Below the pieces are notes generated by a model. That model saw only the letters and a program-made list of their open reading frames with translations, had not been told where the DNA came from and did not search any database. From Lysobacteraceae bacterium (lineage in GTDB: Bacteria; Bdellovibrionota; UBA1018; JAGTJX01), in the NCBI GenBank assembly GCA_023657465.1, contig JAGTJX010000003.1, positions 800,830-864,829 on the forward strand: a stretch of DNA of 64,000 bases. The letters run 5' to 3'. Position numbers and translations under genes: made by a program. Shown piece by piece: positions 8,691-17,505 of the stretch. The first letter of the stretch is position 1. Each line of letters starts with the position of its first letter.

Positions 8691-9872
8691 GAAGTATTGA
8701 GCTGATCTGAACTGTTCACGCCAGAGAATCTTCTGAGTCCAGCGTTGATTGCGAAGTCTGCGTTTGATTTTAGAAACACCTTCGATCGTTTGATAGAAGT
8801 GTAAGAAATTCGTCTCAAAAGAAAACTTAGTTGAAAGGGTTTGCTGTCCTAGTATTACAGACTTTTCTTGTGCGTCTGAGTCCTCATAAAAACTGACAGC
8901 CGTTCTAATAAAATCTTCAGCCTCATTACCCGGTGAAGATCTCTCAGAGACCGCACCACCGAATTCTCCAGTGTTTAATCTCATGCCTTCAGCGCCTATC
9001 GGAGTGGTTACTACTGGAAGTCCTACACGCCAGCTCTCGGCGATCTTACCTTTAATGCCAGCACCGAATCTCAGGGGCGACAAGAGTGCTCGGTACTTAA
9101 TTAAAGTTTCAGAAACATCACGAGCAGGTCCTAAGACTTTCAGCCCTGGCACTGCACCATTCATCTTCATCACACTCTCAGGTGGATAGGCTCCGTAGAT
9201 GTGCAATTCAGCATGAGGTAACTGAGATCGGATCTTAGGCCAAAGATCTCGAACCAGCCATTCAAACGAATCCAAGTTGGGCGCGTGTCTGAAGTTCCCG
9301 ATCCATACGAAGTGATCACGGCCAGTTTGACATGGCTTGTATTCTTCCTTGTACGAAAACCCCATCGTCGAAACATACGAAGGATCCACTTGGAACTCAC
9401 CTACGAGTAATTCATGTTCGAAGTCTGAGAGGAGCCATGTGTGATCCGAGCGATAGATAGAGGCAAGCTCTCGCTCGACATCGTCTTCTAACCACTGTCC
9501 TGGAGTCGCTGCCCTACTCTTGCGCAGGAAGTGTAGATCCTGTGAATCGATGATCCTCAATGCCTGAGGCACACATTCAAACACGCGCGCACCGAATTGC
9601 TCCTCCATGAGAAAGCGATCATAGATCACGACATCAGGATTAAACGTGCGGACGAGTTCATCGAAACGGGAATCATTGGCTGGTATCGCGTGGGTCGGAA
9701 TTCCTCTTGTCTCAAGAGCTGTTTGAAAGGCATTAAATGCAGAAGGCGAGCTGACCTGAACCAGGTAGCCCGCCTTTTGACAAAACTCTAAAATCTGTAA
9801 TGTTCTTACACCGGCTGCGCTTGAGACCGGCTCTGGCCAAACTGTGCTGATCAGCAGCACTCGTTTAGACAT
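8658..9872 (-). CDS. Glycosyltransferase, GT4-like (group 1)
   Basis: GT-B fold glycosyltransferase. The N-terminal Rossmann lobe starts RVLLISTVWPEP, and the C-terminal lobe has FVWIGNFRHAPN, LHIYGAYPPE and the donor-binding region SPLRFGAGIKGKIAESWRVG followed by PVVTTPIGAEGM. These are typical of nucleotide-sugar dependent group 1 transferases. Donor and acceptor are unknown. The start codon shares a base with the TAA of the preceding small basic gene (TAATG), so the two are translated together. It is probably cytoplasmic, acting in surface glycan synthesis. Confidence 0.87.
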   Translation of the reverse strand: MSKRVLLISTVWPEPVSSAAGVRTLQILEFCQKAGYLVQVSSPSAFNAFQTALETRGIPTHAIPANDSRFDELVRTFNPDVVIYDRFLMEEQFGARVFECVPQALRIIDSQDLHFLRKSRAATPGQWLEDDVERELASIYRSDHTWLLSDFEHELLVGEFQVDPSYVSTMGFSYKEEYKPCQTGRDHFVWIGNFRHAPNLDSFEWLVRDLWPKIRSQLPHAELHIYGAYPPESVMKMNGAVPGLKVLGPARDVSETLIKYRALLSPLRFGAGIKGKIAESWRVGLPVVTTPIGAEGMRLNTGEFGGAVSERSSPGNEAEDFIRTAVSFYEDSDAQEKSVILGQQTLSTKFSFETNFLHFYQTIEGVSKIKRRLRNQRWTQKILWREQFRSAQYFSKWIELKNSR

Positions 9873-10081
9873 TATTTTTTCTTGGTTTTCGATTTACGGA
9901 ATGCAGCTTTTTTAGCTGTAGAACGCGTCGATTTTGCACCGAAGTAAGCCGCTTTGAACTCAGGGTTAGTTTTGAGTTTAGCTTTACGCTTGTCACGTCC
10001 CATTTTTTTCAATGTTTTGCGTGAATAAGCAGGTGTCTTTACATCAGTTTTTGCAGGGGTAGCTTTTTCAGTATTTTCCAT
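9872..10081 (-). CDS. Small, very basic protein of unknown function
   Basis: This 69-residue protein is extremely rich in lysine and arginine (24 of 69), with alanine and threonine, and ends in SKTKKK. It resembles histone H1-like tails or ribosome-associated small proteins in composition only, and I recognise no family. It is translationally coupled to the glycosyltransferase by a TAATG overlap. It lies downstream of the peroxiredoxin gene, from which a GC-rich hairpin separates it. A nucleic-acid-binding role is a guess from charge. Confidence 0.72.
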   Translation of the reverse strand: MENTEKATPAKTDVKTPAYSRKTLKKMGRDKRKAKLKTNPEFKAAYFGAKSTRSTAKKAAFRKSKTKKK

Positions 10082-10107
10082 AGGATTCAGGACTTATCTT
10101 AACTCTG

Positions 10108-10137
10108 TGCCCAGGGCAATAAAAATGACCCTGGGCA
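10108..10137 (-). terminator. Strong hairpin between the peroxiredoxin and small basic genes
   Basis: A perfect 9-bp stem, TGCCCAGGG at 10108-10116 and CCCTGGGCA at 10129-10137, with an A/T-rich 12-base loop. It lies 12 bases past the peroxiredoxin stop. It has no downstream T-run on either strand, so it may be a weak or factor-dependent terminator, or an RNA-stabilising hairpin that separates expression of the two genes. Confidence 0.6.
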
Positions 10138-10149
10138 GCCAGAATGATC

Positions 10150-10677
10150 TTACTTTTTAATCGTTGGCTTGCCTGGTTTCCAGTCCACAGGGCAGAGCTC
10201 GCCGGTTTCTAATGCCTGTAAAGAGCGTATAACTTCGTCTACAGAACGACCTATATTATTAGCATTCACGCTAGCGGCTTGAAGAATGCCATTAGGATCG
10301 ATGAGGAATGTGCCTCTGAGTGCGATACCGTCGTTCTCAAGGAGAACGCCATAGTCACGTGAAATACGGTGATTGGTGTCAGCAAGAACTGGGAATTTGA
10401 CTTCTTTGAGGTCTTTTTCGAACCACGCTTTATGCGAGAATACGCTGTCGGTGCTCGCGCCAATGACTTGGCAGTTCAACTCTTTGAATTGAGCCTCTTT
10501 CTCAGCGAATCCACGGATTTCTGTCGGACAAACGAATGTGAAATCAAGAGGATAGAAAAACAGACAAATCCATTTACCTGAAAAATCCTTCGAGCTCACT
10601 TCTTTGAATTGACCGTTTACGTATGCGTTTGCTTTAAATTCTGGGGCAGGTTGGCCTACTTTTACATTAGTGTACAT
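10150..10677 (-). CDS. Typical 2-Cys peroxiredoxin (AhpC/TSA family)
   Basis: Thiol peroxidase that reduces hydrogen peroxide and organic hydroperoxides. The peroxidatic Cys50 lies in DFTFVCPTE and the resolving Cys162 in ELCPVDWKPG, as in AhpC/Prx1-type enzymes. The length of 175 aa is slightly short for AhpC. The ATG at 10675-10677 is preceded by the Shine-Dalgarno AGGAGAAA. A 10-bp inverted repeat lies just upstream, in the space shared with the divergent PAP2 gene. No ahpF is adjacent, so a thioredoxin-type reductant is likely. Confidence 0.95.
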   Translation of the reverse strand: MYTNVKVGQPAPEFKANAYVNGQFKEVSSKDFSGKWICLFFYPLDFTFVCPTEIRGFAEKEAQFKELNCQVIGASTDSVFSHKAWFEKDLKEVKFPVLADTNHRISRDYGVLLENDGIALRGTFLIDPNGILQAASVNANNIGRSVDEVIRSLQALETGELCPVDWKPGKPTIKK

Positions 10678-11522: not shown

Positions 11523-12551
11523 ATGCATTTCTTGAAGTGGCTTGCACCTGGTTTGTTTATTTTTTCTATACTCAAAGCACATGCCGAAAAAGTTCCTCTT
11601 AACCCTTGGTATCACAAGACACTCGATCTTGAGACAGCATGGAAATACACCCTCGGAAACTCAAATGGCCTCATCGCCCTCATCGATAGTGGAATCGATT
11701 ACAAACAAACTTTTCTAGAAGAAGGAGTTTGGCAAAATCTTAAAGAAAAAATCGGCAATAATCGCGACAACGACAAAAATGGTTTTAAGAATGATGTCAT
11801 CGGATGGAATTTTGATTTGGATAATAACAAACCCATGGATGCATCAGGGCACGGAACTTGGCTTGCAAGTTTCATGATTGCTCGGCCAGGGAAGAACCAT
11901 CCTACTGGAATTTGCCCAGGCTGCGAAATCATGCCGCTTCGAATTTTCGATGAAGACGGATACACAAAAGATGACGACGTACTTGTAGATGCTATTTATT
12001 ATGCGATTGATAATGGCGCAAAGATCATCAACCTCGCAACTGCAAGCGAAGGCGCTGATAGTGAATTGAAGAAAGCACTCATAGAAGCAGGCAAACACGA
12101 TATTTTAGTTCTTGCCGCTGCAAGTAATGATGCTGAAAATTTGGATAATGCTGATACTTATCCTGCACGCTACCAATTCCCTTTCATGGTGACAGTCGCT
12201 GCTACAAGGCAAAACGGAAATTTAACATCAAACTCTAACTGGGGAAAAAAGACGGTTCATTTTGGAGCTCCTGGAATTGATCTCGTAGCCTATTGGAGAT
12301 TTGCTGAAGACGGAGACCAGCCGGGTTGGTTTGTCGATGGCGAGGGCACATCCGATGCAGTAGCAATGGCATCTGCTGTGGCAGGGCTCATTCGTAGCAA
12401 GAATCCAAGATTAAAAGCCACCGAAGTCAAACAGATCATGATTAATACTGTTACTCCATCGGGTTATCTAAAAAATAAAACGATTACAGGTGGAGTTATT
12501 AACGCTGGCGCTGCTCTCAAGTGCGCAGCTGATCTGAAGTGTTTGAAGTAA
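11523..12551 (+). CDS. Exported subtilisin-like serine protease (S8)
   Basis: Secreted endopeptidase. The signal peptide ends near LKAHA. The catalytic residues are Asp55 in ALIDSGID, His110 in SGHGTWLASF, oxyanion Asn202 in AAASND and Ser277 in GEGTSDAV. The serine region reads GTSDAVAMASAVAG, without the usual proline and with about three more residues before the VAG than the common GTSxAxPxVAG. At 342 aa it is barely larger than the bare catalytic domain, and I see no clear propeptide domain. A GGGGG-type ribosome site precedes the ATG. An unknown exported protein follows downstream. Confidence 0.88.
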   Translation: MHFLKWLAPGLFIFSILKAHAEKVPLNPWYHKTLDLETAWKYTLGNSNGLIALIDSGIDYKQTFLEEGVWQNLKEKIGNNRDNDKNGFKNDVIGWNFDLDNNKPMDASGHGTWLASFMIARPGKNHPTGICPGCEIMPLRIFDEDGYTKDDDVLVDAIYYAIDNGAKIINLATASEGADSELKKALIEAGKHDILVLAAASNDAENLDNADTYPARYQFPFMVTVAATRQNGNLTSNSNWGKKTVHFGAPGIDLVAYWRFAEDGDQPGWFVDGEGTSDAVAMASAVAGLIRSKNPRLKATEVKQIMINTVTPSGYLKNKTITGGVINAGAALKCAADLKCLK

Positions 12552-12617
12552 TTCCTTAAAACTTGATGCTCCCCAGTCGTTTTGATAGCTATCCTCCTGC
12601 CTTATTGGAGGGATTTT

Positions 12618-13529
12618 ATGAGATTTTCTGTGGTTTTTTTCAGCCTACTTGGACTTATTTCTAGTTCGCAAGCGCAGGTCTTCCTAAGAACCGAAACAGT
12701 TCAAGATAAAACTTACCGGGTTTACCAAGCCACTGTATTGGTAGACTTGAAAAGCCAATCCCCCAAAGATTTGAAGGTTGCGTACGGAAAACGCGATCAA
12801 GCTTATGCCGAGCTTAAAGACCGAGTGGCTTCTCTTGCAAACTCAACAGTCATTTCAGTCACGCAGCTTGCTACTAATGAAAAAACCAAAAACCGTGAAA
12901 GCAACTTCAGTCAGAGCTTCGAAAACCATGTGAACGTCACAGCATCAGCTGAGATTGAAATCAAACCCACGCGCGAAGATTTCACTCCTGGATATCTAAA
13001 AACAGATGTCGAAGCTTGGGTGTCATCGATTAATCAAAAAATTCAGAGCATTTCTGGGACAACTACGAAGGGAAGAGCATCTACTCAATATCTAATGAAA
13101 GATGCAATGACAGGAGAAACACTTCAGGCCACACAAGGATTACCGAATGAAATGCAGTTACGAAAAGGGCTTAAGTTTATTGTTCGAATTAAGAAAAGCA
13201 TTCTTTTCAATGCTGATCAATCCTCAGTTCTTCTTCATAATAACTTTTATAGTAGTGACCCTTATCTGACTATTAATAGGTCTAGCAAGGATGACCTCAT
13301 GATCCAACCTGGGCTCTATATTGCTAGTTATGAGTATAAAAAAAGGGGAGCTCTTTATAAACTGAAGATCTCTTCTGACAATGACAACCTTGTTTTAAAT
13401 TTAATCTTTGGTAACGAAAGTCCCTATCAAGTAAATGAATTCATAATGAGAACCTATAGTAATTTCCAAGAATGGATCGAAATTAGACCTACGTTCTATT
13501 TCAATCCACGAGTTATTAGAGGCGAGTAG
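12618..13529 (+). CDS. Exported protein of unknown function
   Basis: A 303-residue protein with a clear signal peptide (MRFSVVFFSLLGLISSSQAQ). I chose this ATG because GGAGGG lies 5 bases upstream; an earlier in-frame start at 12582 has no ribosome site. The mature part is polar with a run of predicted beta-strands and no cysteine cluster, repeats or motif that I recognise. It follows the subtilase on the same strand by 66 bases, and its stop lies 2 bases from the stop of the convergent large exported protein gene. Confidence 0.7.
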   Translation: MRFSVVFFSLLGLISSSQAQVFLRTETVQDKTYRVYQATVLVDLKSQSPKDLKVAYGKRDQAYAELKDRVASLANSTVISVTQLATNEKTKNRESNFSQSFENHVNVTASAEIEIKPTREDFTPGYLKTDVEAWVSSINQKIQSISGTTTKGRASTQYLMKDAMTGETLQATQGLPNEMQLRKGLKFIVRIKKSILFNADQSSVLLHNNFYSSDPYLTINRSSKDDLMIQPGLYIASYEYKKRGALYKLKISSDNDNLVLNLIFGNESPYQVNEFIMRTYSNFQEWIEIRPTFYFNPRVIRGE

Positions 13530-13531
13530 AG

Positions 13532-16249
13532 CTAATCTTTCCGCATTTCTTCCACAGTGATTTTTCTACGCTTGAACTTGCCGAATCTACGCTCTGCACG
13601 CCAATCTTTCCTTCGCTCATACTGCTGTTTGTGCCACGAGTGAACAATGAGTGGTTTAAACTCTTCAAAGTTGAGTCCTAGTTGCCTGAAGTGTTTCTTC
13701 ACATCTGCGATGAAGATCTTGGGATCTTTCTCCCAGAGCGTTCTGTGCTCGGGATGATAGAGAGTTTGAAGCTTAATCTGAGAATTAGTATTCCATACGT
13801 AGTTTATCATCGCGCGCACGTATTTGATCTGTAGAGCTGCAAGCACTTCGTTCTCAGGCGCATCGAAGAGTCGGAATTCCACTCTGTCTCCAGCCTTACC
13901 ACCGAAGCTTGGGAACCACTCGGTCTCAGGGTTTTTGATATCAATGCCTTCACGATACTCATCTGGAGCTTCTTCAACCATGAGTCCCACTGCATTGAGC
14001 TGAGTGTAGCTAGGCTTACGAGAGACGAAGGTATTAAAGTATTTTATTGAGTAGAGCATCGCACCCAATGACTTCCAATCGCCTTGGAACTCATTGAGCC
14101 TCCGAATATCATTGAGTCCCAGCTCTACAGGAATTGAAGTTCTCTCTCTTGCAGGATGTTGCCAGAGGAAGGAGACCATCTCGCGATTGGATTCGAAGTA
14201 ACGGAGGAGATTGAGAAACTTCTCAGTTCCAAGTTTATCACCCATTGCGAACAGTGGGGCTAGGTCGATATTGGTATGCCCTCCACCTGCAGATGCCTTA
14301 GGAAGAGCTTCAATAGACCTCATTGCGGCATAAAGCTTCTCGATCTCGTCTGTGTTCTGTGGAGCAAACTTGGGAGTAGGAATCTCGATGTGTCCGCCAC
14401 GAAGGTGGTAAGCCTTGCCGTTACGATAGCTACGTCTAATTCCGTCCCACTCTACCCTCCACTTTCGACCTTGAAGATCTGTAACAATGTACCTGAGACT
14501 AAGACCATGTCCGTGTCCACTATCTTCGAGTTTCTCAATAGAACCACCTCCGAAGTAATTCTTAAGATTCTCAGCTGCTTGCGATATAAACTTATTCGCC
14601 TCTTCTCTCGAATCAAAAATCTTCGGAGATCGGAATGAAAACTCAATACCTAGATCCACTTTATTCACATCGATCATGCCGCCAGTTTTGACGATGATGT
14701 TTGGAATTTTGTCTTTGAGTACGGGTTTTAGGTAACGCTCAAAATCTTGATCGAGCCTTACATGAACTGAAAACTTATAAACTGCAGTTTCTAAATCGGA
14801 AAAAAGATATTTCTGCCCTTCACCTTTATCATAAGGTGATTTCCAAGTCTGATACTCGTTAAGATAATCTCGTGCAATTTCTGATAATGACTTTGCAAAC
14901 TTCTCACGAGCATTATCAAGTAGTTCTTTTTTGGCTCCTAGATTCAATCTGTTTTCCCAAGCGAACAGAGGCGCGATGACTTTATTTCGAATGTGATTGT
15001 GAGAGCGAATGTCTTTTTTGTATTTGAGTGGTTCCCAGATTTCTTCTAGTCTTTGAATCCATGCAACTTCGTGGGGACGTAAGTATTTTTCAACCATTTT
15101 GTGAAGTGGAATATCCATATTGAAATCATATGAATCAAAATTTCTTAGTCCATCATAGTCGCCAGAAGAAATTCTAGAGATGAGTATGTCTTCGACAAAC
15201 TCTCTTTTGATTCCCTTATTACCAGAACGCGTTTCAAGATCGGGCAATTGTTTTCCTACTTGACCTGGAGTAGTCGGGCTACCGGGCAAGTTTCTCGCAC
15301 CTAAGAATCTGTATTTGTTTTTGAAATTCTTCGCATCATTCTTCACTACAGCTTCGTGAAGTTTTTTCAGAGAGTTTCTCGTGTAAACACCTAAAAACGG
15401 ATGAGAGAGAATACTCTCTACCTCTTGATCATCTCGCTTCGCTTGGCGCCAGAATAAGTACCAAGTCGTAGCATCGATCATCTCGATATACTTAGGCGCC
15501 ATCACTGTTCTAGCCATTTGATCTTCTGGCCAAGCATGAACCAAGTGTTGGTGTCCGATCATTCCTTCTAAGTATTGCTCCAGTGTTTCCCGTTCACGAT
15601 TGTAGGCACGAAGATCTGCAGTACCTGTACGAGATCTTACTTCATAAGAACCTTCATCATCACCTACCGTTACGAATGGTGGAAACGGAAGGAGAGCGGA
15701 GTTGATTTCAGTTTGAAGATCATCGAATGTGAGCACACGGTCATAAAAAAGTGCGTCCTTACCGTCCATGCTGATGAGTTCGAAGGGATTAATTTTTGGA
15801 TCTTTTGTGAGAAGTGCAAGTATTTCAGATGGAGAAACTCCTGGATCCCTCGATTCGTACTTAAACGTATCTACATCACGGTACTTCTTATGGAACTCCA
15901 TAAGCCACTTGGATGTGGGTCCTACTTTTTTTTCTTTGAACTCTCGGTCTAGCTGAATGGCGAGTTTCTGTTTGAACTTTTCAGCATTCACATGAGGAAA
16001 CCACTCTTCAATGTCAGAGTACATCAAACCTTCTTTTTCGAATGCCCGTGAAAGTGGCACAGTGTTTCCATCAGCCAGGAAAATGAGCGGTTCTGATCCA
16101 CCGACCATGAGCTGATATTTGTATTCAATGAGTTTGCGTGCGCAGGATTGATTGAAAGGATTGGGTTTTTCTGGTGATTTTGCAAACGCTTGCGTCCCGA
16201 GCACGATGAACATCAAAGCAGGAAGTGTATACGTTAAGTATGCCCTCAT
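13532..16249 (-). CDS. Large exported protein with an amidoligase-like C-terminal half
   Basis: A 905-residue protein starting at the ATG at 16247-16249 with a signal peptide (MRAYLTYTLPALMFIV...AFA). Residues 30-520 are mostly helical and unfamiliar. From about 530 on, four spaced blocks match the pattern of the putative amidoligase family related to glutamate-cysteine ligases: GIEFSFR (534-540), GGHIEIPTP (618-626), GGGHTNID (655-662) and VEFRLFDAP (790-798). Such enzymes join carboxyl and amino groups using ATP, which is odd for an exported protein. The C-terminus is very basic. The family call is inference from motif order, not from a search. Confidence 0.6.
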   Translation of the reverse strand: MRAYLTYTLPALMFIVLGTQAFAKSPEKPNPFNQSCARKLIEYKYQLMVGGSEPLIFLADGNTVPLSRAFEKEGLMYSDIEEWFPHVNAEKFKQKLAIQLDREFKEKKVGPTSKWLMEFHKKYRDVDTFKYESRDPGVSPSEILALLTKDPKINPFELISMDGKDALFYDRVLTFDDLQTEINSALLPFPPFVTVGDDEGSYEVRSRTGTADLRAYNRERETLEQYLEGMIGHQHLVHAWPEDQMARTVMAPKYIEMIDATTWYLFWRQAKRDDQEVESILSHPFLGVYTRNSLKKLHEAVVKNDAKNFKNKYRFLGARNLPGSPTTPGQVGKQLPDLETRSGNKGIKREFVEDILISRISSGDYDGLRNFDSYDFNMDIPLHKMVEKYLRPHEVAWIQRLEEIWEPLKYKKDIRSHNHIRNKVIAPLFAWENRLNLGAKKELLDNAREKFAKSLSEIARDYLNEYQTWKSPYDKGEGQKYLFSDLETAVYKFSVHVRLDQDFERYLKPVLKDKIPNIIVKTGGMIDVNKVDLGIEFSFRSPKIFDSREEANKFISQAAENLKNYFGGGSIEKLEDSGHGHGLSLRYIVTDLQGRKWRVEWDGIRRSYRNGKAYHLRGGHIEIPTPKFAPQNTDEIEKLYAAMRSIEALPKASAGGGHTNIDLAPLFAMGDKLGTEKFLNLLRYFESNREMVSFLWQHPARERTSIPVELGLNDIRRLNEFQGDWKSLGAMLYSIKYFNTFVSRKPSYTQLNAVGLMVEEAPDEYREGIDIKNPETEWFPSFGGKAGDRVEFRLFDAPENEVLAALQIKYVRAMINYVWNTNSQIKLQTLYHPEHRTLWEKDPKIFIADVKKHFRQLGLNFEEFKPLIVHSWHKQQYERRKDWRAERRFGKFKRRKITVEEMRKD

Positions 16250-16299: not shown

Positions 16300-17505
16300 T
16301 CAATTTGTTTGCGATTTACGAGACCTGTAGAGCGGAACAACAGCAAGTGCGAGTAGAGACATTGCTGCTGCAATTACCCCAGGGAGATAATACCGGTTTT
16401 GAAACAGGGTCAAACCCATAAACGGACCTAATACCCGACCTAGTGACCCCATTGCTTGCGAGAGTCCTAAAGCTTGTCCCTGTTCTGAAGGACCAGCTGA
16501 TTTGGAAGTCAGAGAGCTAATCGTAGGGTTGATGAGTCCTGAGCCAATTGCCCATGGGATGCAAATCAGAAAATAAGCTGAGTACTTAGGCATAAACGGA
16601 AAGCCAATCATCCCAATGAAAAGGAACACGAGACCCGAAGTGAGAAGAGTCACTTCACTGAACCTCGCGACGAGCTTCTTGATGAGGTATCCTTGAATGA
16701 AAACTCCGATCACAGACGCGAACATGAGAACCATTCCTGTGCGGTAGCCCGCCTCACCGGTCTCGTAATGAAACTTTGTTTGAAACAGAAGTGAGAATGT
16801 CTGCTCGAGGTTGGAAAAAGAAAAAATAGCGAGAAAATTAATCAGCATCAATGTCCAGAAATAAGGATGATTCTTCACAAAGTGAATACGATCACGAGAG
16901 AATGGAAAGAGTGAGCGGGTTTTTTTGCCTCTATGTTCAAGCGCCAAAGATTCCGGTAGCCGGTAAATCGCAGCGAACGCATTCAAGCCACAGACGAAAG
17001 CTGCAATGAACCCTGGAGCTGAAAGCGAAATCTTCGCAGCAGCGATTCCCCCAATCGGAGGTCCAAGCATGAAGCCAAGTCCCATAGCAGCACCCAGAAG
17101 TCCCATGCCACGCGCACGATCCTTCTCAGTAGTGATGTCAGCCATGTAAGCGAACGCTGCAGAGATGTTGCCAGCAAACATTCCTGCAAACATCCTGGTA
17201 AATACGATTGCCCAGAATGAATGCGAGAGCGCAAAACCAAGGTAAGCGAGGGTGGAGCCGAAGAGTGAAATAATCAGAATCGGCCTACGACCATAGCGAT
17301 CTGAGAGCGCTCCCCAGATGGGAGAAAAGATGAATGACATGAGTGGGAATGTTGCACCCAAGAGTCCTAGTTCAAGCCCTGTTCCACCGAAATGCCTGCC
17401 GTAAACACCGATGAGTGGAATGATCATTCCAAACCCAACGAGGTCTACGAAAATTGTAGTAAAGATGACTGAGATCGATGCTTTATTTTTCAAAGGTACT
17501 CCCAT
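16300..17505 (-). CDS. MFS drug/metabolite exporter, DHA1 type
   Basis: Twelve-helix proton antiporter of the TetA/DHA1 group. The loop 2-3 motif A reads GALSDRYGRRP (residues about 65-75), and helix 5 carries the antiporter motif C pattern AAMGLGFMLGPPIGGI. The length of 401 aa is standard. It follows the large exported gene's upstream region on the same strand. No neighbouring regulator is present and the substrate is not predictable. Confidence 0.88.
   Translation of the reverse strand: MGVPLKNKASISVIFTTIFVDLVGFGMIIPLIGVYGRHFGGTGLELGLLGATFPLMSFIFSPIWGALSDRYGRRPILIISLFGSTLAYLGFALSHSFWAIVFTRMFAGMFAGNISAAFAYMADITTEKDRARGMGLLGAAMGLGFMLGPPIGGIAAAKISLSAPGFIAAFVCGLNAFAAIYRLPESLALEHRGKKTRSLFPFSRDRIHFVKNHPYFWTLMLINFLAIFSFSNLEQTFSLLFQTKFHYETGEAGYRTGMVLMFASVIGVFIQGYLIKKLVARFSEVTLLTSGLVFLFIGMIGFPFMPKYSAYFLICIPWAIGSGLINPTISSLTSKSAGPSEQGQALGLSQAMGSLGRVLGPFMGLTLFQNRYYLPGVIAAAMSLLALAVVPLYRSRKSQTN

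Follow-up and report, generated by a model that had tools for sequence, protein, structure and literature searches.

A predicted exported amidoligase-like protein, probably built of two domains of one fold, in Bdellovibrio-like bacteria

The window, the whole 64,000-nucleotide stretch of DNA analysed here, carries a minus-strand reading frame that runs from an ATG for 905 aa with no internal stops (13532-16249). The gene is present as a single copy in the 2.83 Mb genome. The main features of the locus are listed here.

11523..12551, plus strand: exported S8 subtilase (PF00082, 2e-36)
13532..16249, minus strand: coding sequence of 905 aa, a predicted exported, probably tandem amidoligase-like protein (open frame and relatives)
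13610..14692, minus strand: Amidoligase_2-like domain, residues 520-880 (PF12224, hhalign and fold search with the full model)
14930..16066, minus strand: N-terminal domain, residues 62-440, a probable second amidoligase/GS-fold domain (alignment A3, AF2 model and viral fold search)
16181..16249, minus strand: predicted Sec signal peptide, residues 1-23 (sequence and hydropathy heuristic)

Upstream of the amidoligase gene, at a distance of 50 bp, comes a gene on its strand that by eye encodes an MFS-type transporter (16300-17505); the S8 gene, on the opposite strand, is separated from the amidoligase gene by 981 bp. A convergent gene (12582-13529, plus strand) encodes an exported 315-aa protein with no Pfam match and ends 2 bp from the amidoligase stop codon. 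A promoter and terminator scan of the locus returned signal at chance level and was set aside.

The protein begins with MRAYLTYTLPALMFIVLGTQAFA-K, by heuristic a Sec signal peptide, as a sequence-only reading of this DNA had proposed. The protein contains a single Cys in 905 residues, where the open reading frames of the window would lead one to expect about eight; few Cys are common in exported proteins. A hydropathy heuristic finds a hydrophobic stretch near the N-terminus in forty-three of forty-five family rows; of the two rows without one, L044 is an internal fragment and the ORF of L073 lies at the edge of a contig. The start of one further row in this export survey (L076) is uncertain. 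By the same heuristic, no further transmembrane stretches stand out among the forty-five rows. About ten members, mainly from Halobacteriovorax, have a lipobox-like motif. These heuristic predictions of a Sec signal peptide or a lipobox support placing the protein outside the cytoplasm, and the type II secretion gene gspD is present in the window's genome.

Searched as a single sequence, the whole protein has no match in Pfam, NCBIfam, PHROGs, or the PDB and has the appearance of an orphan; a family alignment and a split into domains were needed before matches appeared. A search of related genomes found relatives that align almost end to end at 45 per cent identity; in others, which are much longer proteins, the match covers the C-terminal half, at 31-38 per cent identity. 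A contig scan with the single protein as query found nothing, and the same scan of 84,980 species with a ten-member alignment (A1) identified forty-three loci. Their named titles are Bdellovibrio, Bacteriovorax, Halobacteriovorax, Bacteriovoracaceae, Oligoflexia, and Silvanigrellales, and the remaining loci come from unresolved 'Deltaproteobacteria/Proteobacteria/bacterium' MAGs. Within these searches, heuristics support a family confined to Bdellovibrio-like bacteria, though the contig scan relies on short peptide patterns and the family may also occur outside the matched groups. Of 369 genomes in the phylum, 62 have a match, which in most covers the whole domain. The family is therefore missing from most genomes, and predation does not in general require it. 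Members come in a short form (about 890-1030 aa) and a long form (1250-2130 aa), the latter extended at the C-terminus by a region with a weak match to HEAT_2 (HEAT-like repeats).

The C-terminal half carries six conserved motifs, given here with their conservation across forty-two aligned relatives.

14636..14650, minus strand: motif C1, G534-I-E536-F-S538, with ExS/T replacing ExE (G534 and E536 42/42; Ser or Thr at 538 42/42)
14507..14515, minus strand: motif HGH, residues 579-581 (invariant 42/42)
14426..14461, minus strand: motif WRVEWDGIRRSY, residues 597-608 (W597, E600, W601, D602, G603, R606, and Y608 invariant 42/42)
14372..14398, minus strand: motif C2, GGHIEIPTP, residues 618-626 (G619, E622, and P626 invariant 42/42)
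14264..14287, minus strand: motif C3, GGGHTNID, residues 655-662 (G655, G656, H658, and D662 invariant 42/42; N660 41/42)
13865..13879, minus strand: motif C4, EFRLF, residues 791-795 (E791, R793, and F795 invariant where rows reach)

The sequence-only reading had picked out GIEFSFR, GGHIEIPTP, GGGHTNID, and VEFRLFDAP in this order as signs of an amidoligase or glutamate-cysteine ligase. The order holds with the positions checked, and the motifs go beyond chance: their residues are invariant in all forty-two relatives, and PF12224 (Amidoligase_2) matches 33 of 38 C-terminal halves (alignment A2) at E<=1, with a best value of 2.1e-9. The window's own C-terminal half scores 9.4e-4 (19.6 bits), just below the curated cut-off of 22, which several family members elsewhere in the phylum exceed. 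Profile comparison by hhalign of the C-terminal half against the phylum's Amidoligase_2 proteins gives E = 2.5e-5, compared to 0.16 for a reversed control. What the family shares with Amidoligase_2 is, in order, a GxE strand, an E[IV]xTP strand, an H/N strand, and ExR, so that the downstream elements (xExxTP, H/N strand, ExR) are all present, as E622, H658, N660, E791, and R793. The first strand differs, reading GIEFS rather than GxExE. The serine at the second Glu had been noted for the window protein; across the family this position is Ser in 29/42 and Thr in 13/42 and never Glu, making the substitution a family feature. The predicted export, the additional HGH and EWDG invariants, and the fused second domain also set the family apart from PF12224. 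Judged by its sequence, the C-terminal half is a relative of Amidoligase_2.

A model of the full-length protein (mean pLDDT 70) agrees with this relationship. Glutamine synthetase (GS), YbdK, and GmaS (PDB 5dm3, 1r8g, 9qur) lead its PDB fold search, with arginine kinase and Dop lower in the list and S-adenosylmethionine decarboxylase as a competing, shorter match. E-values are 0.02-0.3, with about 0.02 for the leading matches, prob is up to 0.99, and TM-scores are low (0.2-0.4); these are whole-model matches, with the aligned half not specified. Taken with the PF12224 match, the list supports a predicted place for the C-terminal half in the GS/GCS-fold superfamily. The leading matches are cytoplasmic metabolic enzymes with no detectable sequence similarity to this protein. 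Dop and PafA, which act in pupylation on protein side chains with a GS-like fold, are likewise cytoplasmic and lack sequence similarity to it.

The 500 or so residues after the signal peptide had been described as unfamiliar. Most of this stretch (residues 62-440) is probably another domain with the fold of the C-terminal half, and its E-x-E is intact. Four motifs are conserved in this half.

16028..16039, minus strand: motif N1, E71-K72-E73-G74, intact E-x-E (EKE invariant 42/42)
15641..15652, minus strand: motif N2, G200-S-Y-E203 (G and E invariant in A3)
15551..15556, minus strand: motif N3, G232-H233 (invariant in A3)
15221..15235, minus strand: motif N4, E339-T-R341-S-G343 (E, R, and G invariant 42/42)

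Alignment A3 contains thirty-seven N-terminal halves, which outside the window protein's own clade are only 14-19 per cent identical to it. Thirteen columns are nonetheless invariant (E71, K72, E73, G200, E203, G232, H233, R314, E339, R341, G343, R359, and W431), mostly E, K, H, R, and G. In an AF2 model of this half (pLDDT 84, pTM 0.82) the motifs coincide with predicted strands and run E-x-E, E, H, E-x-R, an order that the C-terminal half shares. In a search of viral predicted structures (BFVD), the top four places go to a Cronobacter phage protein that has no name and to three named phage amidoligases, with E-values between 1.5e-3 and 1.4e-2, prob 0.75-0.89, and low TM-scores. The PDB fold search with this half produced nothing significant, with glutamine synthetases at ranks 3, 6, and 8, and its profile matched the C-terminal half or Amidoligase_2 no better than reversed controls did. 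Two PDB profile matches, the ADP-ribosyltransferase Vis and bL25, were at chance level and were rejected. Given the lack of profile support, a claim of duplication rests on the fold search and motif order. On that basis, we consider it probable that the fold of the C-terminal half occurs a second time in the first ~440 residues. An unrelated alpha/beta domain, leaving the C-terminal half as the only amidoligase, would fit the lack of sequence-profile support, the absence of a significant PDB fold match, and the low TM-scores, and it is compatible with any functional reading. We think it unlikely, given the phage amidoligases at the top of the viral fold search and the four invariant motifs, which lie on predicted strands and follow one another as in the C-terminal half.

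The amidoligase gene has a recurring neighbourhood with exported proteases. An S8 subtilase follows it directly in six other loci (L040-L044, L046), on the same strand and overlapping or within 100 bp, and the S8 protein of the window is the best S8 match in its genome to that of L046. An exported papain-like protein occurs in eleven Halobacteriovorax-type loci and also in L045, there immediately downstream of the amidoligase gene; it has AGSC and GFWHA motifs and weak matches to Peptidase_C1/C70 and falcipain/cathepsin. Its exported homologues (alignment A6; e.g. L061 6732-7898, minus strand) fall below Pfam cut-offs. The same eleven loci have an exported protein without a known family 10-33 bp upstream of the amidoligase gene. 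This protein (L061 8044-9024, plus strand) and its ten homologues (alignment A5) have three invariant Cys. BPL_N adjoins the amidoligase gene in L021 and L023, and Gln_deamidase_2 in L019. These loci share descent, and the counts are not independent.

As a within-phylum control, we searched the 369 genomes with PF12224. One group of matches (L122-L132) scores strongly, has about 300-355 aa, and lacks a signal peptide. A second group has a signal peptide and, in most cases, an intact GxExE (L110, L111, L113-L116, L135, L136, L140, L141). These exported proteins share a signal peptide, an Amidoligase_2 domain, and the phylum with the present family; they differ in keeping GxExE, in having the domain right after the signal peptide, and in lacking a tandem N-terminal half. 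In L110 and L114, three ATP-grasp models match at one stretch, below their cut-offs, giving a probable C-terminal R2K ATP-grasp that the present family does not have; two such models match L142 weakly, also below cut-offs. L110 (1-720, minus strand), L114 (2878-3630, plus strand), and L142 (181-1599, plus strand) are possible exported double ATP-ligases (Amidoligase_2 and R2K). Amidoligase export is recurrent in the phylum, and the metal-binding Glu is not necessarily lost with it. These exported cousins, which keep GxExE and in some cases add a probable ATP-grasp, are our chief reason to think that ATP chemistry may persist in the exported fold.

Amidoligases are regarded as cytoplasmic ATP enzymes. 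They need ATP, and so the protein may work in prey and not in its producer. Our best explanation, which we hold tentatively, is a Sec-dependent exported enzyme that forms amide bonds with two amidoligase/GS-fold domains and acts where ATP exists, most plausibly in prey. As in the wider superfamily, Mg-ATP would be bound by the E-x-E, E, and E-x-R residues, a carboxylate would be activated as an acyl phosphate, and attack by an amine would give an amide bond; candidate substrates are a peptide, a protein, or the cell wall. The E-K-E of the N-terminal half would make a full metal site and the E-x-S/T of the C-terminal half an altered one. The route could be type II secretion or the predator surface, the site of action would be outside the predator's cytoplasm with prey as the obvious ATP source, and a co-delivered protease partner might trim or supply substrates.

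The sequence-only reading had offered a fold repurposed for binding where ATP is absent, a different reaction, or action inside another cell, and of these options we infer that the last is to be favoured. Repurposing for binding is less likely, because the active-site-type residues are fully conserved in both halves and the phylum's exported amidoligases keep GxExE, some with a probable ATP-grasp. One form of it would have the protein bind a ligand (peptide, muropeptide, or nucleotide) in the predator's periplasm or on its surface, or serve as a protease scaffold, without ATP turnover. The signal peptide and the Halobacteriovorax lipobox do put the protein outside the cytoplasm, and long members carry a HEAT-like region, but the invariant residues are charged and of active-site type in both halves, even across N-terminal halves about 16 per cent identical, and we judge this form improbable. 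Nor do we find it likely that the protein is a GS-fold hydrolase or deamidase resembling Dop, cleaving an amide or isopeptide bond with a nucleotide as bound cofactor or with none. ATP supply would then be no obstacle, and Ser/Thr in place of the second Glu, seen in the C-terminal half of all members, would mark the change. Dop is among the full-model fold matches (it is at chance level in the N-terminal PDB search), and the neighbours are hydrolases (proteases, glutaminase). However, the N-terminal half retains E-K-E, and the exported cousins with GxExE and, in some, a probable ATP-grasp would be ligases.

Our literature search found no paper tying amidoligases to Bdellovibrio beyond citing Iyer et al. 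2009, and a study from 2024 that compares predatory Bdellovibrionota (PMC11656739) does not use the word 'ligase' in its main text. A phylum rich in predators that exports several amidoligase families raises the questions of where the ATP comes from and which target is modified. One rather doubtful but possible answer extends the amide-forming enzyme to a previously undescribed effector class: Bdellovibrionota would deliver ATP-dependent amide ligases, including a two-site tandem, into prey, where, with prey ATP and a partner protease, they would cross-link or otherwise modify the prey's proteins or peptides. Use of prey ATP and prey protein would, if true, define a predator effector of a new kind; otherwise this would be a GS-fold protein that works without ATP, which is equally odd.

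Other members and relatives show further architectures. One long member (L021) has a 430-residue N-terminal extension (8983-10272, minus strand) of no recognisable family with a weak YscK match; an IucA/IucC-like motif in it was rejected, having no Pfam or PDB support. Two cytoplasmic-looking proteins (L144, L145) combine a helicase-like N-terminus (GAGKT/GSGKT) with an Amidoligase_2 domain that has GxExE near residue 450.
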